Notes under the pieces: model-generated
Told to the model about the DNA's origin: nothing
Database searches by the model: none
What the model saw: the letters and a program-made list of their open reading frames with translations, nothing else
Origin: an uncultured Geobacteraceae bacterium
GTDB lineage: Bacteria; Desulfobacterota; Desulfuromonadia; Geobacterales; Pseudopelobacteraceae
Direction: 5' to 3'
Assembly: GCA_903875605.1 (NCBI GenBank)
Contig: CAIQWT010000102.1
Location: forward strand, 1-64,000
Length of the DNA: 64,000 nucleotides
Position numbers and translations under genes: made by a program
Shown here: positions 46,399-63,144 of the stretch, in pieces
How the letters are laid out: every line of letters begins with the position of its first letter
Position numbering within the stretch: position 1 is the first letter of the stretch

Positions 46399-46475
46399 CG
46401 GTGCGTAGCGCAGCCTGGTAGCGCACTAGACTGGGGGTCTAGTGGTCGCAAGTTCAAATCTTGTCGCACCGACCA
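46399..46475 (+). tRNA. tRNA-Pro (anticodon GGG), candidate prophage attachment gene
   Basis: A 77-base cloverleaf. The acceptor stem CGGTGCG pairs with CGCACCG, then discriminator A and encoded CCA. The D arm contains AGCGCAGCCTGGTAGCG. The anticodon arm CTAGA-CTGGGGG-TCTAG gives anticodon GGG. A T arm with GTTCAAATC follows. The prophage lysis genes begin about 70 bases after it. tRNA 3' ends are the usual sites for tyrosine-integrase prophages, so the core attachment sequence probably lies in its 3' half. Confidence 0.96.
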
Positions 46476-47982: not shown

Positions 47983-49878
47983 TTACTGCAACTGTGGCGC
48001 TTGAGTAGAGAACCCGTCCCATTGCAGCTTTCTAGTCGCAGTAACGTACACTCCGGACAAGTTGGCCCCTGAAGGAGTAAGTGTGATTTGCAAGTTGTTC
48101 CCGACAATAGAGCCAGATATTGCGGCTCCTGTTATTGTTGTTGTGCCTCCGGTTGCAAGTGTTCCCAAAACTGTTGATCCAGTACCTATCGTATAAGTTC
48201 CGTTCAGATTGGAAACTACATTTAACGATGATGTGAAATCAATTGATGCCGGAGCAGTGGCCTGATTATTTGTGTTAAGCGTTGTGACTGAACCGTTTAA
48301 TGTATAATTCAAAACGCCGGCATTATTTCCGGCAACGATGATGGGCAGATCGATATAATCAATAATTGAAGGAAGTGCTGTTTTGTGTATCTGTGTCCTC
48401 TGCACCTTATCATCGTAATACATTACGTTTCCATCTGTTGTAACAGACGAATTCAGTGCATTTAATGCTAACTCAGGAGTGAGATATCTAAGGGTGTTGT
48501 AACCCTTCAAATGGGTTTGTTGCAGCGCCCCAGTGCCGGAAACTAATGGAAGCCTGGTTGCATTGCCATTCACAAAAGATATATTAGAGTTAATGAGGGC
48601 ATACGCCCCGATATCAATAAAAGCACCTGAAGAGGAACCGGAATCAGCCATAAAAACTTGACCTGTGAAATCCACTAATGTTGTACCGAGTTTTAAATAT
48701 TTGGCATGGCCTTCTACCAATCCAAAATGACGGACAACATTGCAAGAGTTTGTACCTGTTCCTATCGCATAAGCATACGAACCATCAGAGTCACTATCCC
48801 ACGCAGAACCCGGCCCACCTCCGATATGAGTAGCCCCCAGATCGAGCGAATTGACGCCATTTATATATAAACCTGGCTGCCAGTTACGAAAACTAATCAG
48901 GGAATTTTTCCCGCCGAATGTTACCGTCCCGAATGATGTTGGCGTGGTTTGCAATGCAACATAAGAGATCGGAGTAAAACCAAGACTACTTAAGCCACCG
49001 CATCTTTCCAGTACAACAGGGGAATTGCAGCCCATATAAATGTTGAAATACGTGTGATCCTCACCTTCTACATTTAGAATTCCAATTGATCCCCTCCCAC
49101 CATTTACGGTGTGCATACTTTTAAGCTCTAGCTTTACGCCACTTATCACATTCAAATGGCAGAAATTATCAGCAAGTCCACGCCAGAAAAGAAAGCCAAT
49201 AGTGCTGCAATTCGCCCCAGGGACTACATAGAAATCCTTGAACGTGAGATGATTTGTGCCTACGCAATCAAACAGTCTGCTACCTGTATCGGCTTGAATG
49301 TTAGTCGATAATCCAACACCGACTATCTGAGTATACGATTTTTCAAATGCAGTTGAAGTCAGGTCGATAGGAGTCGTTACATTATAAACTCCGCCAGAAA
49401 GTTTTATTAATCGGGATGTGGTAAATGATTGCGCTATAGCTGAAATAGCTTTGTTGATAGCGATTCCTGCATCACCAGTCCCCGTACTGGTGTTAAACCC
49501 TCCCCACCATTCAGGATATACTTCAAGAGTTGATCCCTTGCCGAAATACACCTGTCCTGAACCCTTGAAAATATTGTTTCGATCAGAGTTGAAAATACTG
49601 TTGATCGTAAATGCTGTTGAATTGGCAATGCTACCGCCTTCAAATTTCAGCTTTCTATCGGTAGGCCATGCGCCTGATATATTGCTCTGCGCTTGAGTCA
49701 GGTCGCTTGTGACAACTACGTTTTTGCCAGCGCAATCCGCTGAAGTTCTTGCCGCCTCAAGAGTCAGTTTAGTTGTATAAACTGAAGTTGTTCCGGTTCC
49801 GGTAAAAACCAAGATTGCAGCGTTGCAATTAACTGAGAAAAGTAGACAAAACAAACACGCTTGAAATAACGATTTCAT
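47983..49878 (-). CDS. Phage tailspike-like beta-helix protein with a signal peptide
   Basis: 631 residues. The N terminus is a signal peptide by eye (FQACLFCLLFSVNCNA, cut before AILVF). The central part (about 60-480) has short strand-turn repeats of a pectate-lyase-like beta-helix, including LKFEGGSI, YPEWWGGFNTS and LIKLSGGVYNV. The last 100 residues are Thr/Gly-rich. Such proteins are typically tailspikes that bind or cut surface polysaccharide. A signal peptide is unexpected for a virion protein made in the cytoplasm. AAAGGAG upstream supports the start at 49878. Confidence 0.7.
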   Translation of the reverse strand: MKSLFQACLFCLLFSVNCNAAILVFTGTGTTSVYTTKLTLEAARTSADCAGKNVVVTSDLTQAQSNISGAWPTDRKLKFEGGSIANSTAFTINSIFNSDRNNIFKGSGQVYFGKGSTLEVYPEWWGGFNTSTGTGDAGIAINKAISAIAQSFTTSRLIKLSGGVYNVTTPIDLTSTAFEKSYTQIVGVGLSTNIQADTGSRLFDCVGTNHLTFKDFYVVPGANCSTIGFLFWRGLADNFCHLNVISGVKLELKSMHTVNGGRGSIGILNVEGEDHTYFNIYMGCNSPVVLERCGGLSSLGFTPISYVALQTTPTSFGTVTFGGKNSLISFRNWQPGLYINGVNSLDLGATHIGGGPGSAWDSDSDGSYAYAIGTGTNSCNVVRHFGLVEGHAKYLKLGTTLVDFTGQVFMADSGSSSGAFIDIGAYALINSNISFVNGNATRLPLVSGTGALQQTHLKGYNTLRYLTPELALNALNSSVTTDGNVMYYDDKVQRTQIHKTALPSIIDYIDLPIIVAGNNAGVLNYTLNGSVTTLNTNNQATAPASIDFTSSLNVVSNLNGTYTIGTGSTVLGTLATGGTTTITGAAISGSIVGNNLQITLTPSGANLSGVYVTATRKLQWDGFSTQAPQLQ

Positions 49879-49890
49879 AAGTAAACTCCT

Positions 49891-50859
49891 TTATCTAAAT
49901 GCCATGTAATAAACTGTAATAGTTTCAGTAACAGCGCCCACTTTTGTCCAATTCATCGTAAAGCCATCTGCTCCGAACGCAGATATTTTTCCAGTATAGT
50001 AATCAGCATAGGCAGCAGATTGCCATAAAGTAAGAGCAGCATTATCCACACCATAAGTTCCTGCTACAAGTCGGGCACTACCATCTACACCGCCGCTTGT
50101 AGTTCCGTCATCCATCCCGACACCGAATATATTTGAACCGACTACGCCCCACACAAAAATCACTTTGCTCGGCTGAAATCCAACTCCGGTGATTGCTTGC
50201 GTGCCTCCGGTAGCAGTTGATCTGGTGAATGTACCAATCTTAATTGCGGGATTAACCAGGATATTAGCTGTTCCATCAAAGTTGACGCCGTTGATAGTTC
50301 GTGCCGTAGTGAGCCTTGCGGCGCTGCCGGTGGTATTCTGGTTCAGAGGATTGGCAACTGATATTGCACCTGACGTGTTGATAATAGTTGTCCCGTCTGG
50401 CTTTACTCCACCGAGTACTGAACTTGTAGCAGTTGGCAAAGTGTATGTTCCTGCTGGTGTCCAGCATCCTTCAGAATTGCCGGAAGCGTCCACGCCTAAT
50501 GCCGCTTGTCCAGCACTGCAATTCGTACCATTCGCTGCAAGTGCCGTTGAAGTACCAGCGTTGCCGGTGATAGTGGCTACGGTGACATTGCCTGATAATG
50601 CTTGTCCATTCACTGTGACAGTCTTGTCCACTTTGCCGTTGAGCTTTGTTTGTATCGATGAGGAAAGATTCGTGAATCTAACCGTCGAAGTTTTGCCGTT
50701 CAACTTCAACTGTGTCCTGGCCGAATAGTTTGTGAAGCGTACAACATCGAGTTTTCCTGCGGAAAGAAGTGCATTATTCTTCATCGCCTGCTGCAGGAGC
50801 TGGTCGTCAGAAAATGCAACTGCCGCCGATGCCAATATGAAAAATAGTGTCCATCTCAT
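49891..50859 (-). CDS. Phage tail-fibre-like protein with a signal peptide
   Basis: 322 residues from ATG 50859, whose start overlaps the stop of the tail-fibre anchor gene (ATGA). It opens with a signal-peptide-like sequence (WTLFFILASAAVAFS). A repeated unit follows (VRFTNYSARTQLKLNGK, then VRFTNLSSSIQTKLNGK). Collagen-poor, Gly/Thr/Asn-rich repeats typical of tail-fibre shafts come next, with a compact C-terminal domain of about 120 residues. It is probably the receptor-binding part of the fibre. As with the next protein, export by the Sec route would be unusual. Confidence 0.7.
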   Translation of the reverse strand: MRWTLFFILASAAVAFSDDQLLQQAMKNNALLSAGKLDVVRFTNYSARTQLKLNGKTSTVRFTNLSSSIQTKLNGKVDKTVTVNGQALSGNVTVATITGNAGTSTALAANGTNCSAGQAALGVDASGNSEGCWTPAGTYTLPTATSSVLGGVKPDGTTIINTSGAISVANPLNQNTTGSAARLTTARTINGVNFDGTANILVNPAIKIGTFTRSTATGGTQAITGVGFQPSKVIFVWGVVGSNIFGVGMDDGTTSGGVDGSARLVAGTYGVDNAALTLWQSAAYADYYTGKISAFGADGFTMNWTKVGAVTETITVYYMAFR

Positions 50860-51593
50860 ATACGATACCAGTTTGTCCCGTTCATGATCAGATGTATGGC
50901 TTCGTCTTGAGTGGTAAGATCTACTGACGTCTGACGGAGAACAGTCTTTCCCCCCGTACCAGTCACAGTCACCGGATTGGCGGTTGCGTCAGTTTTGATG
51001 ATTATAATCTCTCCGCTACCTGGCAGATTTGCGATCACTGTTCCTGCTGAAGCGTCGGCATAAGTAACAGTCGGAGCAGATCCTGCTCCAGCAGTTATTG
51101 ATACCGTATAACTTGCGGTTTTAAGAGTCAGATTTCCGTTTATGTCGAATCCGACAAGAGTGTCATTCAACTTCTGGGCAGGAAGTTCGAAATTTCCCGT
51201 CTGCGACGAAGGCAACTTAATTGCACGTTCTGTCATCTCTGCGATCTGCTGGATCATCATGACCATACGGTCAAAAGCATCCTCATGTATCTCCGGAAAG
51301 AAAGTCCCCAGGTTACGTATCTCGGTTGACTGTAGCAGATCTACCAGGCGCATGATGACCAGCTGATTGCCATATGCGAGAGCAATAGTGAGATTAACTA
51401 CACCGCCACCATACGATCCCGCTCCTGAGAGGGTGTAATCCGTACCCTCCACCAGAAGTGTGTCAGTTCCGTTAGCATCCACCCGTATCACAGAGATCTC
51501 CGTATTCATATAGAACCGAAAATTGAATGTGAACGGTCCAGTACTCCCGCTGCCGTTGAATGTTGCCTTGTTGATGTTCGTTGATACGGTCAT
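50856..51593 (-). CDS. T7-like tail-fibre N-terminal (anchor) protein
   Basis: 245 residues, resembling the N-terminal virion-binding domain of T7 gp17 (FTFNFRFYMNTEISVIRVD, DYTLSGAGSYGGGVVNLTI, LVIMRLVDLLQSTEIRNLG). It then has a heptad-like stretch (EDAFDRMVMMIQQIAEMTERAI) and a short beta-rich tail. It lacks a long shaft and receptor domain, which the next two genes may supply. AAGGGGG precedes the ATG at 51593. It follows the giant internal protein, the gp16-gp17 order of T7-like phages. Confidence 0.78.
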   Translation of the reverse strand: MTVSTNINKATFNGSGSTGPFTFNFRFYMNTEISVIRVDANGTDTLLVEGTDYTLSGAGSYGGGVVNLTIALAYGNQLVIMRLVDLLQSTEIRNLGTFFPEIHEDAFDRMVMMIQQIAEMTERAIKLPSSQTGNFELPAQKLNDTLVGFDINGNLTLKTASYTVSITAGAGSAPTVTYADASAGTVIANLPGSGEIIIIKTDATANPVTVTGTGGKTVLRQTSVDLTTQDEAIHLIMNGTNWYRI

Positions 51594-51651: not shown

Positions 51652-54600
51652 TCAGCGATTCTTTTTGTGATAATTGAATGTGTCAGTCACAGGCGACCAC
51701 GCATGTTTCGGATCGTAACTACCATCCAGGATGTCATGGAAAAATTCACCGGTTACCGTTGCCTGGGCTGTAGGTAGACCGGTAACCATGCCAACGGCCC
51801 CTGCGGCCTTCTTGCCCAACTTGGCCTCGCTCCAATCATCTTTAGTTACAGCGTTAGTCACATCATATAAAGACTCTATCCCACTATAGATAGGCATGGG
51901 ACGAAGCGTGTAATGTTCTCCTGTAATCGTGGCCTCTGTCTTTTTGGCAAAATCTCTTATTATCGGGATCCCATCTGCAAAACCGAACGTCAACCGTGCC
52001 AACAACCATTTAGGGATTTTCTCCGGATCATCTGGATACTTGCCACGTATCAGATCAAACATGACAGCCTGCGGCAAATACATGAACACGAACGTCTTCA
52101 CGGCGTTCATAGTTGAATCCTTAGTCAAACCCTTATCCTTGATCATGGTTGCCGCTTCGGAATAATGGTTGTAAGCTACCAGTGAAGGCCCGATAAACTG
52201 GGTCAAACTCCTCACCCACTGATTGCTCTGCCCCTCTATTGCCGACAAGTCACCCTTCCGTCCAGAAACTTGCGTTATCCTTACAACCGAGTCCGCAAAC
52301 CTACGAGACTGCTCTTCCGTATATCCACGGTTCTGCCCTTCCTGATAACCTGATAACCACCCGAGAGCCGCAGATTCACGGTAGAAAAACATCTTTGTCA
52401 TCATGCCGAACTTTTTTATGTCGTTTGCCACTGAATGTCTACCGGAGAGATCATTCAGTGCTTCTACAAAGTCTCGGTCTATTTCATGGGAAAGGTTTTT
52501 CAGGAAAGGGCTGGTAGATTCTGCAAAGTTGACAGCATTGTTCCTGTTTCTGCCATACGCAACAACAGCGTCCCTTACGGATGATACGGAACATTCCTTG
52601 AATACCGTAACAGCCTGAGTACCGACTTCCGATATCGCGTTCCCTATTCTCAAGCCCAGTAACGAAGTAGACATATTACGGCGGAATAGAGAGTTCAATT
52701 GCCCGACAAATCCCTCTATGTCTTCACTGAACCGGTCAGAGGTGATCGTCTGATCAATCCACCCCTTGAGGTTATTGGAATACTTTTCTCCCAGTCTGTC
52801 CTGTAATGCCTGGTTCACCTGTTCGTCGTTGAGTAATCGTCGGGCATCCCTGGCAAACTGCCAGTGTGAGATATCAAGAATGACATCATTCAGGTGCCTG
52901 GTAACGATACCTGACCAATTGAGGTCAAGGGGGAGAGATGCTTTCTCGTTGCGCTCCTTCATGTAACCTTGCTTGGTATTGCTTCCTTTGTAGGTAAACA
53001 GATCGTTGATCGTTGAGGCATCTTCTTGCAACTTACCAGCCTTCGACCACCTGGCATCATACTTGAGCGGAAAGTAACCACCCTCCAGAGTCCCGTTCTT
53101 GATCTCCATCGGCTGCGCTTCTATCCACTTCGGTTCGACTCCTAATCGTCTGCGAGCAAGTGCGGCAGCTTCCGGCTTCAACTTCTCGATGGTCTTCCAG
53201 ATGGCGTTAACAGAAGTGATATCCTTTGCTGTTAAATGGGACAGTATCTCCTGAATCTGGTCGTGGTTCAGCTCCAGAGGCATATCTCGGCCCTCAAGTT
53301 TCAAACCGTTTCGCATTAGCTTGTCCATATTCGATTCGTTCCCACAGTTCAGCGCGATGGCAATGATATCGTTTTTTGCGAGGCTCGCATCAATGGATTC
53401 TATCCGGTGGGTGATCGGACGATTGAAACGGTCAGTTCGCCCCTCAAATCCCTTGTTTCTTACTATTTCCATGATATCCGGATACACCATTTGCATCAGA
53501 CGGATCTGGTGATCTGCTGCATCGTTGTAAGTATTCATCAGCGCGTCATGCCATGGGCCAATGTCCTTGTAGTTGTCCAGACGACGAAAGATGAACTCGC
53601 GGCGTTTCAGCACCAGATCGAGCGGATAGTTCGCATACTTCTCGAACAGATCCTGTGATGCCTTGGTATCGGATTTCTTATTCTCCTTGCCAGCAGAGTA
53701 AACTGACCGAGACATCTTTCCGGCCATAAGCTGACGATCAACCATCTCACCGTTGACACGTACCTTGTTCATGTCACGCGCAGCAGTTTCAATCATCTTG
53801 AGTGTGTCACGCACAGAGCGGAGCTCATTCATCTTTAACTGGTCGAGTTGCTTCCCAGGGTTCTCGATAAAACCGGCATCGATAGGAAGTGGAGTTCCGG
53901 CGCGTTCCTCAAACCCTGCCAACCAATCACGAAAGGGTTGACGTATGGCAGTATTGTCAGGCGGAACCACTCCGAACCGTTCCAGAATCCCCTGCACTTG
54001 CCCTAACATCTCCTGATCAGCTTTACCGATGTCTCCGAGTTTCCGCTTGCTGACTATGCCGATATAGTCGCCGATCTTCTTCACTTCTGCCTTAGCGCGG
54101 GAAGCTTCAAGGAACATGAAGTGATTGAGCAGTTGGCGCGTACGCGCATCAGCCGCCAGATCATATTTACCCTCACCATTCAGCTTGAAGGCATCACGAG
54201 CCGACTGCCGTTCTGCTACCAGATACTTGTATGGGCTGATACCCTTGGCGTCCTGTTCTCCGATATGCCTCCATGCAGTTTCACGGAATTCTGCATAAGT
54301 CGGTATTTTGGTAGCAGACTCTCGGCGTTGCTCGGCGGCAGCACGATCCGCAGCATTGACGAACGGCTTGACCTGGTTGGCTTTGGCTCTGAGTGCCTTG
54401 ATTTCAGCCTCCAGGACCTTCGACCATTGCTCGTTGTGGACTGCTACCGTGGCCTCATCAACGATAGAACCGTCCAGGTGCATAGCTCCATGTTGATCGT
54501 TCATCCGTGCTGCCGTCTCTTGGGCGACGTAACTTTTATACGATGGGGTCTCTATCATACGCTTGATCATGGTATCAGCAGAATCGAAACCAAATCGTTC

Positions 54601-57600
54601 AGCAACGATGTCAGGATGGACTCCGTCTTTACCCGTGACACCCTTGGGCAGTCGCTTGACGAAATCTTCACCGTACCTATCAACCAGGAGCGATCTGTCA
54701 ATTTTCATGGGAGCGACTTCGTTTCCAGCAAAGTCCCTGCCTTTCTGTAACTCCTGAATAGCCTGGTATACCGGTTCTGCTTGTGCTTCCTTGGTAACCT
54801 GTCCATTGATCTTGGTCTGTTCCTCTTTCCACCACTCAAGATGTTGACGGCGGAATTCCTTCAGAGATGCAGCACGCAACTTTTCCCGAGCCGCTTCACC
54901 GGCCTGCTCACCAACACGCTTATATGCAGCGAACTCTTTCTCACCCATGCCCATATCTGCAGCAGTAGCGAAGAGCGGTTTCTGATCAACCTGCTCTCTG
55001 GCTCTTGCAATCTCGCTATCGGTTGCGAACATCCGCCCCATGACTTCACGAACATCATCATTGATTTTCACACCACTGTCCGACAGCTTCTGAAAAATGC
55101 CGTTGATCCATGTGGAAAGACGTTCAAACGCCCCACGCAGACCCTCAGAAGGTGCCTTGCCTTCACGGAAGAATGTGATCATGCCATCGGCGAACTTCTC
55201 ATGCTGTTCAGTGGATAGAGTCCCATCCTCGGACTTGAGCCACTTACTGACCGTTGCCCAGTCAGCTTTGACTTGCTCCGGTGCGTCTGGATGTGCTGAG
55301 AGGCGTTGTAGATCGTCAAGAGCCCAGTGACCGACCTCATGCACAAAGGTGGTTGCGTTGGCATCTTTCAGAATCCCTATTTCGCGGAGAGGTGAATCAG
55401 GAGAGGTACGAAAGAAACCGCGCTTTTGATCCTCTGCTTTCTGCCACATCTGCTTGATCTTGACATCGTTGTCGTTGAATATGACGTAATTATGAGCGCC
55501 TTCGCCTTCGCTGCGACTTGTTCCGTCAAGATACTTGATGCCGCGAATTCCGAGGGAATGGAGATATTCAGAAGTCTGACGGAGTTTTTCCTTTGCTGGT
55601 TCGGCTTTCTTATCGTTGCGGATCTTGTCAGTCCATAGCTGATTATAGATCTGCTCTCCGGTGTATCCTTCACCTTTTCCGGATTCATCCACACCGAGCG
55701 GCAGTTCTGTATTTTTGCGTAATGCAAGTAACGCTTTTTGAACTACCGGACTTTGTTCGCTGAATGACTTGCCCCACAACAGATATTCATCTTCTTTAGG
55801 CGCAAGTTCTACCTTATACAATCGGCCTTTATCGGCTTCGATCTGTACGGCGTCGCTTTTTAACTTTTCAATAGCTTCCTTGAATATCGGTTTCCACTCT
55901 TTGAAAGCGCTTTTCTCTCGACTCTTTAACTCTGCCAGTACATTCTTTTTGTCCCTGTACCCTTTGCCTGCTCCGTTGTAGGCGTCATATATAAGACGAT
56001 CCACTTTGTCAGCGTCGGAAAACATCTGTTGTGAATTGTCGTAAGCCTTGCCATCCACCACAAGAGTCGTGTTCACCCTGGACAGTTTATCCCGATACCA
56101 CTTTGCAACATCTTTACTTCCCGCAAAATACAATCCGTGTCCGAATGACTGAACGCCTTCTCCGGTCCCGACCTTATCCATGCTGAATTTATCAAAAGTA
56201 TGAGGCCCACCGTGCCAGGCAGATTGATAAAAAATCTGATCACGAGAACTCTTGACAGATTCATCAGAAAAGCGCTTAATATTATCAGAAGGCTTGAGAA
56301 GGTTGGATATTCGGTCGCTAACAGTGGGCTGCAGAACTGCCAACCAATCTTGAGCCTTTTGTTCGTTATACCAAACGCTATGACCATCCTCTAACCACTT
56401 TGCAATACCTTCCGGCTTTTTCCCAAACATAGTAACAATCCGCGAAACTTCAATGTCACGTCCTGACTGTTTGGTTTCCAAAGCAACAAGTAAATTTTCT
56501 CCACCAGATTTCAACTCCGTAAAAATAGCTTTATGCCCATCACCCTGGTCGATTACCATGATCGGATCGTTAATCGCTTCAGGCAATGAGGCCAGAGATT
56601 CGTAACTGTATTCATGCGCTGAATCTCTGCCGCCTTTTCGGTTCAATATCGATTGTTTGAGAAGAATCTTTTCGCCTTTTACTCCAGCCTCTTTTAATGC
56701 AGAAGAAGGGATACCGACTTCAATCACATTTTTTGGATTGAGAGTCTTAGCAAAATACTCTTTTAAACTGGTTCTGAAATTGTCTGCCTTGCTTGCTGCC
56801 TCCTGAAAAAGTTCCTTGCCCTGCCCCCCATTCAGTACCTTCCGAACATCCTCGTTGTTCATAGTCTTCAGATCAACACCATGAGCATCAAGCAACTGCC
56901 GCATCTGATCAAACCGCGCCTGTTTCTCTTGATTGGCTGTGTGCTCACTTCCTACAGGATAGACAGGCTGTCCCCTTAACTCTTTGTCAATAGCCTGTGT
57001 CAAATCGTTTGTGGTCGACCCTTCAGGCAAATAGCCTTGTTCGACCGCGGCCTCACGCACCTTATCGAGAGACATACCATCTTCGCGTAAAATGTTCTTC
57101 TGACCAGGCAACCTATTGCTATCAACCTCCATGCTTTTCAGGTCACCCCTATCGTCAGACACCCCACGATCTCGGACAAATGACAGCAACGAAGGAGCGG
57201 TATAAAGATCACCATCCTTGAATGTCTTGTTGCCTGAGACGGCTTCGGCACGTAACGTATCAAGCATCGGATCGGTTGCCATATCGATCTTCTGACGAGC
57301 TGCAACACGGTCAACTCTGTTGGTGAATGTAACTCTGCCGGATAGATCGTCATTCTGCCAGAACTGCCACGGATCCTGTTTGAAGTCATCAGCCATACGC
57401 AGGACATGGGCAGTTGCTATTTTTGAGTTATCTTCGGCTGTCTTGCGATCATATCTACCGAGTCCGGCAATCTGACCGTAGATATCATTGTACACCTTGA
57501 GAGCCGGTGCAGTTTCATGGGTAGCATCGGCAGCACTCTGTTCGTCCTGTTCTTTGATGAGCCTATCGAGCTCCGCCATTCTTCCGGAATCAAGTTCCCC

Positions 57601-58920
57601 GCGACTCATTGCCTCATCAGCAGAAATACCGTCAGGCCGTACCTTGATCTTACCTGCCAGATCAGCAAAGTCCTTACGCTTCCCGAACTCCGTCAGGAAA
57701 GTTTCAAGTGGGATTTTCATATCATCGCCAAGTACAAGCGACTCATGATAACCGTCATCAGTTCCGAGAACACGACGAGCTGCTTCGTCAGGTGCTTCCT
57801 TGCCATCCTGCCAGAGTGTGTTCCACTCCTGGACCGGCATATATACATCCTGGACAGGGCCGTCCTGTTTCGCCAGGCGCAGAAATTCCTTCATAGCAGG
57901 TTCAAATCTTTTGGTGACCTTGTTGTCGGTGACTTCGGTGCCGAGCTGGGTAACAAAGTCTCTTGCCTGTTGAGCTTCGACACGATCAGTCTTTTCCTTG
58001 GCATAGATATCATATGCAGCATGACCGCCGAATAACGCTCCCATTACGGCATCATGAACCATGGAATTCGGATCGAGCGGATTAATCTTGTCCGCCAGAT
58101 CATCGTATCCGCCACGTGAAAGGATGGCGCTGTCAATGGCACGGGAACCGACACCGAAACCGGTATTTAGTCCCACCCCACGCCCAATACTCCCCAACTT
58201 GGTCTTTGCCCCGAAAGGCAGCTTGGTCATGCCATACGCACCAAGGCCGGTTGCCCATGAGGATATCCAATTAGTACCGTCATCAACACCAGCGTCTGCG
58301 TTGCTCTGGATCTTATCCATGGTTGCCCCGCCAGTCATGGCGGCAACTCCTACAGGACCCATCAGTAAATATGGTGCAATTTCAGCGACTGCCCTGCCAA
58401 CATGTCCCACAGTTCCGAGCCTCTGATCCGGCGCGGCGTCCTTGCTGTACTGATGATACTCCGCCATCTGCTTTATCAGAGAATCAGTCTCTGTGGTGTC
58501 ACCTGACATATAATCAAGAGCTTTGGCAATCGGCATCATCCCTAGACCTATCGCTTGACCGATAGTTGCTCCGACTGATTGCATAGGCTTCTTCATGAAT
58601 TCTTCGATGTATGAGAGCTCCTTGACAGAATCATGGGCCACCGCTGCATTGTTACTATCAGAAAGAAACTGAGCAGTTACTGGGGATGTCCCTGACAACT
58701 CCCTTGCCTGCTGTTGTGCCTGCATCAACTTGACCGGAGCGCCGTTACGAACCAGCCCAACAGGGACTCCACTTTCGTTAGCAAGGCGCTGCCATTCAGC
58801 TTCCTGATCAGGAGTGGTTCCCGATTGGACAGCCTGAGAAATTACTGCTGGAAGAATGGCAGAATTATTTGATCTGCCAGTAACACCATGAATTATTGAG
58901 AGTACGCCGCTGTCATCCAT
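51652..58920 (-). CDS. Giant polyvalent phage protein in the internal-virion (gp16) position
   Basis: 2422 residues; ATG 58920 overlaps the previous stop (TAATG). The N-terminal part has a hydrophobic stretch (YLLMGPVGVAAMTGG, about 182-200). Residues about 715-870 look like the MuF C-terminal/PBECR nuclease-type domain (ILNRKGGRDSAHEYS, EVSRIVTMFGKK). Residues about 898-1160 look like an ADP-ribosyltransferase (AWHGG at 901, GHGLYF at 927, GIKYLDG, NYVIFND). A zincin motif HEVGH is at 1194-1198. A helical region (EWWKEEQTKINGQ) near 1355-1390 and a conserved C-terminal half (SLFRRNMSTSLLG near 2080) are typical of large polyvalent proteins. Such proteins travel with phage DNA and act on the new host. 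No lysozyme or transglycosylase domain was seen. Domain calls are by eye. Confidence 0.75.
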   Translation of the reverse strand: MDDSGVLSIIHGVTGRSNNSAILPAVISQAVQSGTTPDQEAEWQRLANESGVPVGLVRNGAPVKLMQAQQQARELSGTSPVTAQFLSDSNNAAVAHDSVKELSYIEEFMKKPMQSVGATIGQAIGLGMMPIAKALDYMSGDTTETDSLIKQMAEYHQYSKDAAPDQRLGTVGHVGRAVAEIAPYLLMGPVGVAAMTGGATMDKIQSNADAGVDDGTNWISSWATGLGAYGMTKLPFGAKTKLGSIGRGVGLNTGFGVGSRAIDSAILSRGGYDDLADKINPLDPNSMVHDAVMGALFGGHAAYDIYAKEKTDRVEAQQARDFVTQLGTEVTDNKVTKRFEPAMKEFLRLAKQDGPVQDVYMPVQEWNTLWQDGKEAPDEAARRVLGTDDGYHESLVLGDDMKIPLETFLTEFGKRKDFADLAGKIKVRPDGISADEAMSRGELDSGRMAELDRLIKEQDEQSAADATHETAPALKVYNDIYGQIAGLGRYDRKTAEDNSKIATAHVLRMADDFKQDPWQFWQNDDLSGRVTFTNRVDRVAARQKIDMATDPMLDTLRAEAVSGNKTFKDGDLYTAPSLLSFVRDRGVSDDRGDLKSMEVDSNRLPGQKNILREDGMSLDKVREAAVEQGYLPEGSTTNDLTQAIDKELRGQPVYPVGSEHTANQEKQARFDQMRQLLDAHGVDLKTMNNEDVRKVLNGGQGKELFQEAASKADNFRTSLKEYFAKTLNPKNVIEVGIPSSALKEAGVKGEKILLKQSILNRKGGRDSAHEYSYESLASLPEAINDPIMVIDQGDGHKAIFTELKSGGENLLVALETKQSGRDIEVSRIVTMFGKKPEGIAKWLEDGHSVWYNEQKAQDWLAVLQPTVSDRISNLLKPSDNIKRFSDESVKSSRDQIFYQSAWHGGPHTFDKFSMDKVGTGEGVQSFGHGLYFAGSKDVAKWYRDKLSRVNTTLVVDGKAYDNSQQMFSDADKVDRLIYDAYNGAGKGYRDKKNVLAELKSREKSAFKEWKPIFKEAIEKLKSDAVQIEADKGRLYKVELAPKEDEYLLWGKSFSEQSPVVQKALLALRKNTELPLGVDESGKGEGYTGEQIYNQLWTDKIRNDKKAEPAKEKLRQTSEYLHSLGIRGIKYLDGTSRSEGEGAHNYVIFNDNDVKIKQMWQKAEDQKRGFFRTSPDSPLREIGILKDANATTFVHEVGHWALDDLQRLSAHPDAPEQVKADWATVSKWLKSEDGTLSTEQHEKFADGMITFFREGKAPSEGLRGAFERLSTWINGIFQKLSDSGVKINDDVREVMGRMFATDSEIARAREQVDQKPLFATAADMGMGEKEFAAYKRVGEQAGEAAREKLRAASLKEFRRQHLEWWKEEQTKINGQVTKEAQAEPVYQAIQELQKGRDFAGNEVAPMKIDRSLLVDRYGEDFVKRLPKGVTGKDGVHPDIVAERFGFDSADTMIKRMIETPSYKSYVAQETAARMNDQHGAMHLDGSIVDEATVAVHNEQWSKVLEAEIKALRAKANQVKPFVNAADRAAAEQRRESATKIPTYAEFRETAWRHIGEQDAKGISPYKYLVAERQSARDAFKLNGEGKYDLAADARTRQLLNHFMFLEASRAKAEVKKIGDYIGIVSKRKLGDIGKADQEMLGQVQGILERFGVVPPDNTAIRQPFRDWLAGFEERAGTPLPIDAGFIENPGKQLDQLKMNELRSVRDTLKMIETAARDMNKVRVNGEMVDRQLMAGKMSRSVYSAGKENKKSDTKASQDLFEKYANYPLDLVLKRREFIFRRLDNYKDIGPWHDALMNTYNDAADHQIRLMQMVYPDIMEIVRNKGFEGRTDRFNRPITHRIESIDASLAKNDIIAIALNCGNESNMDKLMRNGLKLEGRDMPLELNHDQIQEILSHLTAKDITSVNAIWKTIEKLKPEAAALARRRLGVEPKWIEAQPMEIKNGTLEGGYFPLKYDARWSKAGKLQEDASTINDLFTYKGSNTKQGYMKERNEKASLPLDLNWSGIVTRHLNDVILDISHWQFARDARRLLNDEQVNQALQDRLGEKYSNNLKGWIDQTITSDRFSEDIEGFVGQLNSLFRRNMSTSLLGLRIGNAISEVGTQAVTVFKECSVSSVRDAVVAYGRNRNNAVNFAESTSPFLKNLSHEIDRDFVEALNDLSGRHSVANDIKKFGMMTKMFFYRESAALGWLSGYQEGQNRGYTEEQSRRFADSVVRITQVSGRKGDLSAIEGQSNQWVRSLTQFIGPSLVAYNHYSEAATMIKDKGLTKDSTMNAVKTFVFMYLPQAVMFDLIRGKYPDDPEKIPKWLLARLTFGFADGIPIIRDFAKKTEATITGEHYTLRPMPIYSGIESLYDVTNAVTKDDWSEAKLGKKAAGAVGMVTGLPTAQATVTGEFFHDILDGSYDPKHAWSPVTDTFNYHKKNR

Positions 58921-60870: not shown

Positions 60871-61380
60871 TTAATTCCAGGCTTTACCGCCGTATTTTGC
60901 ACTGTAATAACCAGATCCTGCGCTTGCGACTCCACCGATCAGAGTTCCGGCCGCTGTGAGAGCTCCACCGGTTGCAGCAGCGTTACCCTTGTATTCTTCG
61001 ATAGCTGCCTGAGAGTTCAATCCGCTTGCCGTCCTCTGCGCGTTGTTTAGAATACGCAATGCGTCGAGCTCTCCGGTTCCGGCTGTCTCGGTCGAGATCT
61101 GGAGCGCAGTTCCTGTCGCGGTATTGATTCCGGATGCAGCACCCTGGGTAATCTGAGTTGATTCAAGCTGCTTCACCTTCTGCTGATGTTCGGCAGCAGC
61201 AACGGATCCCTGTTGTTCAGCAGCAAGAGCATTTTGTTTCATGACAGTTGAATTATAATCTGCCGCATGCTTCTGAGACTGACCTGATTCGTAAGCAGAA
61301 TAACCGGCTATTCCCGCCCCTGCTACCGCTGAGACTGCGGCGATAGTTGCCAATGTGGTTGCTGATATAGAACCGGCCAT
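60871..61380 (-). CDS. Internal virion protein (T7 gp14-like)
   Basis: 169 residues. A glycine/alanine-rich hydrophobic N terminus (ATIAAVSAVAGAGIAGYSAYESG) is followed by a helical Gln/Ala region (ALAAEQQGSVAAAEHQQKVKQLE) and a Gly/Ala-rich C terminus. This matches gp14-like proteins that insert into the host outer membrane during DNA ejection. AAGGAGC upstream supports the ATG. Assigned from composition and gene order. Confidence 0.6.
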   Translation of the reverse strand: MAGSISATTLATIAAVSAVAGAGIAGYSAYESGQSQKHAADYNSTVMKQNALAAEQQGSVAAAEHQQKVKQLESTQITQGAASGINTATGTALQISTETAGTGELDALRILNNAQRTASGLNSQAAIEEYKGNAAATGGALTAAGTLIGGVASAGSGYYSAKYGGKAWN

Positions 61381-61381
61381 A

Positions 61382-61807
61382 TTAGTTGCTCCTTGTCATG
61401 AGGCGTTCATGTTCATCTGTGAATTCTTCTTCTGCCGCTTCCAGTGTTTCGGCAGCAGTGGCGAATATCATTGCTAGATGTGTGTCTTCATGAGCGATGA
61501 ATACCTGTTTACGTCCCGCTGAAGCCTTGAGCACATGATACCCTTTGACATTTATGGTCCGGCCACCGATGAAAACAGTGCAATGACCGCAGACAACAAG
61601 CGTTGTTTCTATCTTGATGAGAGCGCCGGTAATAACCACACCAGCGGGAATTGTTACAGTACGTGTATAAACACCACCATGGAGCGTCTGTGTGTGAACC
61701 AGATCAACCTGGGGCATTTGCAGAATTAAATCCTCAATCGCTCTTGCCTTACCGATATCATCTTCCGTCATAGCAGGCAGTATGTCGGACAAAATCAAAT
61801 CACTCAC
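61382..61807 (-). CDS. Phage cupin-like protein
   Basis: 141 residues from GTG 61807, which lies just before the stop of the acetyltransferase gene and is preceded by GGGGG. An upstream ATG at 61831 lies further inside that gene. The segment VITGALIKIETTLVVCGHCTVFIGGRTINVKGYHVLKAS has the strand pattern of a cupin barrel, and IAHEDTHLAMIFAT follows. An accessory morphogenesis or host-takeover gene between the gp13-like and gp14-like genes. Function unknown. Confidence 0.55.
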   Translation of the reverse strand: MSDLILSDILPAMTEDDIGKARAIEDLILQMPQVDLVHTQTLHGGVYTRTVTIPAGVVITGALIKIETTLVVCGHCTVFIGGRTINVKGYHVLKASAGRKQVFIAHEDTHLAMIFATAAETLEAAEEEFTDEHERLMTRSN

Positions 61808-62249
61808 TGAACCCCCGCATAAACACCTCATTCGATAATCGGTATTTTTTACTTCTCTTTAACGCGCTCGATAGTTTGCCGCCTGCCGGAGCACTGATTA
61901 ACAGTCCTATTGCGTTAGCCTCCCGTGCGTACTGTTCCACATATCTCAACAGTTTTGCTCCGGCCCCGAACTTACGATAATCAGCATGAGCAAATATGGA
62001 CTCAATCGTCACAAGAGTTTTTCCGTAGTGAGCGATCTTGATTGTCAGAACAGTAACGAAACCCACCAGCTGGGTATTGTCCCATGCACCGACTACGTGC
62101 AGACCCTTAAACCCGCACATTTCCTCATACATCGAGATATCAGCAGACGGCCTGGGTAATCCCTCCAACTGGCACTCATCCGCATACAGATCCAAAAGGC
62201 CGGACTGCACGACATCGTTGATCGTACATGGTTTGATAACTATCTTCAC
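61800..62249 (-). CDS. GNAT-family acetyltransferase (phage)
   Basis: 149 residues with the GNAT fold pattern: LVGFVTVLTIKI, then IESIFAHADYRKFGAGAKLLRYVEQYAREANAIGLLIS, which contains the acetyl-CoA-binding R-x-F-G-A-G-A loop. It may modify a host or virion protein; the substrate is unknown. It overlaps the neighbours on both sides by a few bases, so it is transcribed and probably translated with the virion genes. Confidence 0.75.
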   Translation of the reverse strand: MKIVIKPCTINDVVQSGLLDLYADECQLEGLPRPSADISMYEEMCGFKGLHVVGAWDNTQLVGFVTVLTIKIAHYGKTLVTIESIFAHADYRKFGAGAKLLRYVEQYAREANAIGLLISAPAGGKLSSALKRSKKYRLSNEVFMRGFSE

Positions 62250-62710
62250 AGCCGACCTCTCATCTCAAATCTTATAAATGGAATCCCAAGAACTCCGACA
62301 GGCATAGCTTCATCCATCTTGAACCCGAGCCACTTGAGCCACTGAATTGCCCTGACGTTGCGAGAGTCTACATAGTTTTCAAGAATAGGGAAAAGGGCGA
62401 CCATTTCAGCGACGACCTTCCGGCATCTTTTCAGGAAAAGCAGCGCGTGACGATCCAGGTGATCAGTACCAACCATCCATGGACGCCCGACTCCCCCGAG
62501 TAATCCAGCCGACGCCACCCCGAACATGCAGACCGGAATACCGTCGATCAGTCCGGTATAAACAGTCTCTGAAACTCTCAGACCACGACGCATGACGTCT
62601 GCTGGTAATGAGTAAGTCGCTGCCCAGAACTCAGCACGATCCGCTTCTCGAACATGGTCAGCAATAGGAGTGATATGTTCAGATGTAGCTGGGACGATCT
62701 CGGCAATCAT
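62246..62710 (-). CDS. T7 gp13-like virion protein (acetyltransferase fold)
   Basis: 154 residues from ATG 62710, which overlaps the stop of the coiled-coil gene (ATGA); the longer frame to 62770 runs inside that gene. The segment GIPVCMFGVASAGLLGGVGRPWMVGTDHLDRHALLFLKRCRKVV and VDSRNVRAIQWLKWLGFKMDE resemble the DUF2833/gp13 family of T7-like phages. These proteins have an acetyltransferase-like fold and are needed for virion morphogenesis. Position between the tail tubular B-like and gp14-like genes agrees. Confidence 0.72.
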   Translation of the reverse strand: MIAEIVPATSEHITPIADHVREADRAEFWAATYSLPADVMRRGLRVSETVYTGLIDGIPVCMFGVASAGLLGGVGRPWMVGTDHLDRHALLFLKRCRKVVAEMVALFPILENYVDSRNVRAIQWLKWLGFKMDEAMPVGVLGIPFIRFEMRGRL

Positions 62711-63144
62711 TTGAATTCCTTCCAAAGAGTTGCCACCTTCACGAAAAACTCTGAACGGTCCAGAATCCACAATAAGAAGAACAGTCCAGTCAAAGCCGGA
62801 GTTACCATTTTGAGCTTCAGTTCTGACCAGAACTTCTCTTTTTTCTCTTCGATCTCTTCGATGCCTTCATCTTTTGCATGCACTGCCTCGATGCTACGAA
62901 CACGACCGAACAGTTCCTCGAAATGGCTGTCGTGCTTGGTGAGTCTGTTTTCATGCGTATTGATCAGCACACCCTGGGCGGCGATGTTCTCAAGAGCGAC
63001 CGCAGTACGGCGCATGTGTTCTTCGGACCGCTCCATGTGTTTGTTCACACTGTTGATATGTGAATCAAGCCTCGTCAGAGACTTTCCGAAGTTGTCGATC
63101 TTTTCCGATTGAGCGCATTCAAGTGAGGCTGCATGTTGTGTCAC
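62707..63144 (-). CDS. Phage coiled-coil protein with C-terminal membrane helix
   Basis: 145 residues from GTG 63144, with GGGGG upstream. Long coiled-coil sequence (SLTRLDSHINSVNKHMERSEE to ENRLTKHDSHFEELFGRVRSIEAV) ends in a hydrophobic helix (VTPALTGLFFLLWILD). I do not recognise the family. It lies between the tail tubular B-like and gp13-like genes. It may be a virion component or an accessory membrane protein. Confidence 0.6.
   Translation of the reverse strand: MTQHAASLECAQSEKIDNFGKSLTRLDSHINSVNKHMERSEEHMRRTAVALENIAAQGVLINTHENRLTKHDSHFEELFGRVRSIEAVHAKDEGIEEIEEKKEKFWSELKLKMVTPALTGLFFLLWILDRSEFFVKVATLWKEFK

Follow-up and report, generated by a model that had tools for sequence, protein, structure and literature searches.

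An exchangeable payload bay in a polyvalent protein, probably an ejection protein, of a BPP-1-like prophage in a Geobacter-like bacterium

Giant chains that combine MuF-C/PBECR, ADP-ribosyltransferase (ART), zincin and LPD domains and are encoded among virion genes were described as the class of polyvalent proteins by Iyer et al. 2017 (PMC5512222), who also proposed their processing by metallopeptidases and reported extensive domain mosaicism in the relatives of Helicobacter jhp1044. The protein described here belongs to this established class, and the structure of one podovirus pre-ejectosome (PDB 9k3a) already includes an ART-fold domain. It was found in a 64,000-nucleotide stretch of DNA (the window) from a Geobacter-like bacterium, where the gene sits among virion genes and joins several unrelated enzymatic domains, MuF-C, ART and zincin, in one chain, as polyvalent proteins do. 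An initial annotation had read it as a polyvalent protein with three enzyme-like parts, which the evidence for all three domains supports. With a probability of about 0.7, we consider it a virion-packaged ejection protein of a BPP-1-like podovirus, built as a conserved carrier with an exchangeable effector payload that is probably freed by the zincin.

The gene, its prophage and its family

The gene is a single intact open reading frame of the expected 2422 residues, running from 58920 to 51652 in the window without interruption; its minus strand is added here to the initial annotation, which gave none. It is part of a complete 39-kb BPP-1-like temperate podovirus prophage that lies only partly inside the window and carries terminase, portal, capsid and tail genes. 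The features at and around the gene are as follows.

46431..46475 (+): prophage attachment site in the 3' part of tRNA-Pro, one of two copies of a 45-bp perfect repeat; the other, at contig C102 85658-85702, is outside the window
contig C102 84584-85627: integrase, adjoining the attachment repeat
50856..51593 (-): tail fibre protein (phrog_1640, 2e-39), downstream of the polyvalent protein gene as in T7 and BPP-1
51652..58920 (-): gene of the polyvalent, putative ejection protein, intact single ORF, 2422 aa
58920..60935 (-): gp15-slot internal protein, 671 aa (phrog_1044, 1e-11)
60871..61380 (-): T7 gp14-like internal virion protein (phrog_418, 9e-31)
62246..62770 (-): gp13-position internal virion protein (phrog_308, 2e-44)

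The order of gp13-like, gp14-like and gp15-slot genes, polyvalent protein gene and tail fibre gene is that of T7, which agrees with the assignment of the protein to the position of T7 gp16. No SLT domain was detected in the gp15-slot protein or in its counterparts in the prophage L008 and in L021, L022 and vir555, while the counterparts in BPP-1, Carin1 and PfDIW6 have one. Between the gp13-like and gp14-like genes lies a gene for a GNAT acetyltransferase (61800-62249, minus strand, Pfam 8.5e-10), which may be a stand-alone packaged effector, since GNAT domains are found as payloads in relatives of the polyvalent protein. Downstream of the fibre genes, a 631-aa protein (47983-49878, minus strand) has no Pfam or PHROG match.

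PHROG 9880, the family of BPP-1 Bbp10, aligns over most of its profile and covers residues 1155-2408 of the protein (E 1e-252), and matches were obtained in 45 phage records, including BPP-1, Carin1, PfDIW6, CP2 and AF, and in at least 527 IMG/VR stretches. A first IMG/VR scan with the protein as single query gave no match, no patterns could be derived from alignment A1, whose 18 members were too diverse, and NCBIfam returned no informative match to the protein. The description of the protein as nearly twice the length of gp16 holds numerically (2422 vs 1318 residues), but the emphasis on size does not, because 70 full-length homologs span 1822-3825 aa with a median of 2282 and the length is ordinary for the family.

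Domains of the chain

The following domains and regions were delineated along the protein.

58585..58824 (-): LPD22 domain, residues 33-112 (Pfam, 6.2e-16)
56833..57276 (-): conserved N-block directly before the bay, residues about 549-696 (local HMM, left anchor in 50 homologs)
55423..56796 (-): payload bay, residues about 709-1166 (DNA alignment with L008, composition, bay lengths)
56350..56631 (-): MuF-C domain, PBECR-type and nuclease-like, residues 764-857 with H769 (Pfam, 3.4e-15)
55441..56235 (-): ADP-ribosyltransferase domain, residues about 896-1160 with H903, Y931 and D1132 (relatives, conservation, predicted fold)
55051..55422 (-): zincin-like metallopeptidase domain, residues 1167-1290 with HEVGH at 1194-1198 and E1241 (family conservation)
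52462..53673 (-): helical region, residues about 1750-2153, weakly similar to podovirus ejectosome core proteins

The LPD22 domain, missing from the domains listed in the initial annotation, is common to nearly all homologs, including those of BPP-1, Carin1, PfDIW6, AF, JessA and DC33 (alignment A10). The MuF_C family (PF18819) scores 56.5 bits against a curated cut-off of 27.6, within the region at about 715-870 that had been picked out by eye as MuF-C/PBECR-like. Its H769 precedes a predicted helix (773-777) and is invariant across the three aligned proteins of alignment A4; it corresponds to the conserved histidine of the N-terminal helix of MuF_C/PBECR domains, with a putative catalytic role. 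MuF-C domains can also be catalytically dead, as in Mu gp30 (Iyer et al. 2017, PMC5512222). A genome of the same genus encodes a 5109-aa ORF with a MuF-C domain (L025:1224-16553, plus strand, 2e-22), which is a different giant polyvalent protein.

For the ART domain, the protein alone matches ART-PolyVal (PF18760, Tox-ART-HYD2 clade) at residues 902-1029 with 17-21 bits (E 0.011 for the full protein and 6e-4 for the fragment), under the curated cut-off of 31.2. Among the aligned sequences, 20 of 36 match this family at E up to 0.05, the best at 6.7e-10. H903 and Y931 are each conserved in 19 of 19 relatives and D1132 in 18 of 19, and the IMG/VR loci retrieved with the ART region have the common pattern AWHGSPHTFDKF...GTGEGAQAYGYGLYFA...GIKYLDG. 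An H-Y-D arrangement was given for this ART clade by Iyer et al. (PMC5512222), and conservation suggests D1132 as its third member. Residues 700-1300 were modelled with AlphaFold2 (pLDDT 80.8), and ART/PARP structures match residues 195-462 of the model. The best match is 9k3a_B, a chain from the pre-ejectosome of cyanophage A4, with Z 11.4 over 159 aligned residues (rmsd 4.6 A), followed by tankyrase 2 with Z 8.2 over 115 (rmsd 2.7 A) within a PARP/tankyrase range of Z 7.3-8.2, and viral predicted structures named ART-PolyVal match as well. Foldseek alone gave no PDB match with E below 0.001, and a PDB sequence search with the ART and C-part profiles returned nothing relevant. As the relatives match ART-PolyVal, the H-Y-D residues are conserved and the predicted fold is that of ART/PARP, the ART identity is confirmed for the region of about 898-1160, where AWHGG (at 901) and GHGLYF (at 927) had been noticed. 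Profile matches to the MuF-C and ART regions, the lack of which had been named beforehand as grounds for refutation, were found for both.

The HEVGH motif lies at 1194-1198 as annotated. H1194, E1195, H1198 and E1241 are each conserved in 18 of 18 aligned homologs of the zincin block, and conservation points to E1241 as a possible third ligand. The zincin part of the 700-1300 model consists of strands followed by the HExxH helix. Conservation of HExxH among the loci of the IMG/VR scan with A5 is partly circular, since the scan pattern contained this motif; the unbiased support comes from alignment A1, which was collected without the motif as bait and in which HExxH and E1241 are also nearly invariant.

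The C-part is predicted to be nearly all helix (pLDDT 72). VIA-align placed two core proteins of podovirus ejectosomes at the top of its PDB matches, 8vb2_A with Z 7.1 and 9vvp_W with Z 7.0; helical models can reach a Z of about 7 by chance. An hhalign comparison of a 13-member family to the T7 gp16 family gave a probability of 2% and E 0.024 with a weak register at gp16 617-717, and neither this nor the comparison made with the single sequence was significant. The identities of the two structures and the roughly matching weak gp16 register point the same way, and because of this agreement we read the protein as a carrier of the ejection complex.

The payload bay and its exchange

The bay has a GC content of 0.44 compared to 0.50-0.51 in its flanks. 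We measured bay length between the local-HMM anchors, the N-block and the zincin, in 50 homologs, of which 14 have an empty bay and 36 a bay filled with 95 to 1786 aa. The standard deviation of length is 60 for the region from the zincin onward vs 446 for the region before it. In Acinetobacter phage Ab9 (L037:1756-10275, plus strand), the stretch resembling the N-block was matched beyond the zincin, which suggests that either the backbone has been rearranged or the anchor is spurious. A Pfam survey of up to 730 aa preceding the zincin in 63 IMG/VR homologs identified, besides LPD22, ART-PolyVal and LPD3 (eight each), PBECR5 (four), PBECR3 (three), RadC and GGDEF (two each) and one case each of MuF_C, LPD1, LPD5, LPD23, zeta toxin and GNAT. 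The bays of named phages and prophages contain PBECR1, PBECR5, LPD3, LPD23, GNAT and ART payloads.

Whole-bay exchange between near-identical prophages is seen directly by comparison with the sister prophage L008 of a Geobacteraceae MAG (apparently contig G014:C91), whose protein is 86% identical over residues 6-709 and 95% over residues 1133-2421. Its bay is occupied by PBECR1 and not by MuF-C and ART (194 vs 470 aa), the two bays having no common sequence, and the DNA alignment of the window and L008 stops sharply after KELFQE and restarts at KRGFF. Unrelated or empty bays were likewise found in further pairs whose C-parts are 96% identical or more, namely L102/L105, L100/L105 and L099/PfDIW6, the last with bays of 199 aa vs empty.

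The MuF-C cassette is mobile, since in the homolog L170:465-9119 (plus strand) it is found near the C-terminus instead, 59% identical to residues 668-896; this C-terminal MuF-C marks a second site of payload insertion. A genome of the same genus encodes, close to the end of a contig, a stand-alone 265-aa MuF-C protein (L024:4671-5468, plus strand) that is 45% identical to residues 710-878, and stand-alone genes of this kind are possible cassette donors.

The suggestion that the combination of domains in this position may be new stands only in a narrow sense. MuF-C together with ART in this bay was seen only here among the homologs examined, but single ART, PBECR1, PBECR3 and PBECR5 payloads are common at the same place, MuF-C and ART co-occur in the other giant polyvalent proteins L054 and L057, and 9k3a already provides an ART-fold domain from a podovirus pre-ejectosome. 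The protein type is known; the clean cassette swap between near-identical phages is the instructive part, and a partial literature search found no description of a defined BPP-1-family bay with whole-cassette replacement between such phages.

Proposed role and comparison with known systems

From these observations we infer that the protein is packaged, ejected and cleaved, and likewise its enzymatic activity and its targets. The conserved N-part with LPD22 and the mostly helical C-part would form a carrier that is packaged with the gp13-, gp14- and gp15-position proteins and leaves the head at infection within a trans-envelope ejectosome; position, family and structural resemblance argue for this. 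The exchangeable bay between the two parts would bring in the MuF-C RNase-like domain and the H-Y-D ADP-ribosyltransferase. The zincin directly after the bay would most likely cut the chain and free the payloads in the host, as suggested by what Iyer et al. proposed and by its fixed place beside the bay. Ahead of any phage gene expression, the freed payloads may then shut down host defences, RNA-based or otherwise, or redirect proteins of the host. The literature searched contained no virion proteomics or experiment on any member of the Bbp10-type family.

The chain could instead be a structural ejectosome protein only, its bay domains inert, either decayed or serving as RNA- or protein-binding insertions in a flexible linker. 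The empty bays of 14 of the 50 anchored homologs, by which the bay is dispensable for assembly, and the description of the Mu gp30 MuF-C as inactive (PMC5512222) are in line with this, but an inert bay is rather unlikely given that the ART triad is kept in 18-19 of 19 relatives, that H769 is invariant in the three proteins of A4 and that bays repeatedly contain enzyme families and not random sequence. Still less probable is a payload aimed at competing phages (superinfection exclusion) or expressed from the prophage, and not directed at the defences of a new host: Iyer et al. (PMC5512222) raised anti-superinfection roles for captured polyvalent proteins and phage-phage conflict fits rapid payload exchange equally well, yet the gene is embedded in the late virion cassette and sits tightly between neighbours that share its strand. 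The 'lysin' and 'lysis protein' labels of relatives in Caulobacter and Nostoc phages would suggest a late lysis or peptidoglycan-degrading protein, which we regard as very improbable, as a Pfam search of the full protein gave none of the domains SLT, lysozyme and amidase (no transglycosylase had been seen in the initial annotation either), in BPP-1, Carin1 and PfDIW6 it is the neighbouring gene that has the SLT domain, and BPP-1 and Carin1 have separate endolysin or amidase genes.

We therefore retain the packaged carrier with an exchangeable payload. If this is right, hundreds of homologs share one carrier with differing payloads, so that the bay is a list of candidate counter-defence enzymes and the family catalogues what podoviruses inject first. 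The family also makes it testable whether the zincin of a polyvalent protein releases domains after delivery. As a generalisation to which we give an even chance, the largest ejection protein of BPP-1-like podoviruses may serve them as an all-purpose carrier of effectors, with a standard bay, recombination at fixed borders and zincin release in the host, close relatives differing chiefly in the payload injected first.

Among the known systems, BPP-1 Bbp10, Carin1 gp32 and the proteins of PfDIW6, CP2, AF and JessA share the gene position and a C-terminal-half backbone about 26-31% identical to that of the protein. They differ in payload, with PBECR1 in BPP-1, PBECR5 in Carin1, an empty bay in PfDIW6, LPD23 in AF and ART in JessA, against MuF-C and ART here. 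The pre-ejectosome protein of cyanophage A4 (Anabaena phage A-4L, PDB 9k3a) has an ART-fold segment (1418-1604) resembling the ART model. From numbering and motif, A-4L ORF27, which precedes the tail fibre genes and contains an ART-like motif (HGT...GSGTYFS) at 1423, is likely the gene of 9k3a chain B; its ART lies near the C-terminus, and it has no sequence similarity to the backbone described here. T7 gp16 is alike in gene order and in its place before the fibre gene, but has an N-terminal SLT transglycosylase and no payload bay. T4 Alt resembles the proposed role as a head-packaged ART injected with the DNA (PMC5512222, PMC9503650), but belongs to the R-S-E clade and stands outside any polyvalent protein. 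Compared to the proteins of Iyer et al. 2017, the present family has one conserved podovirus backbone with a bay between N-block and zincin that is swapped between near-identical prophages.
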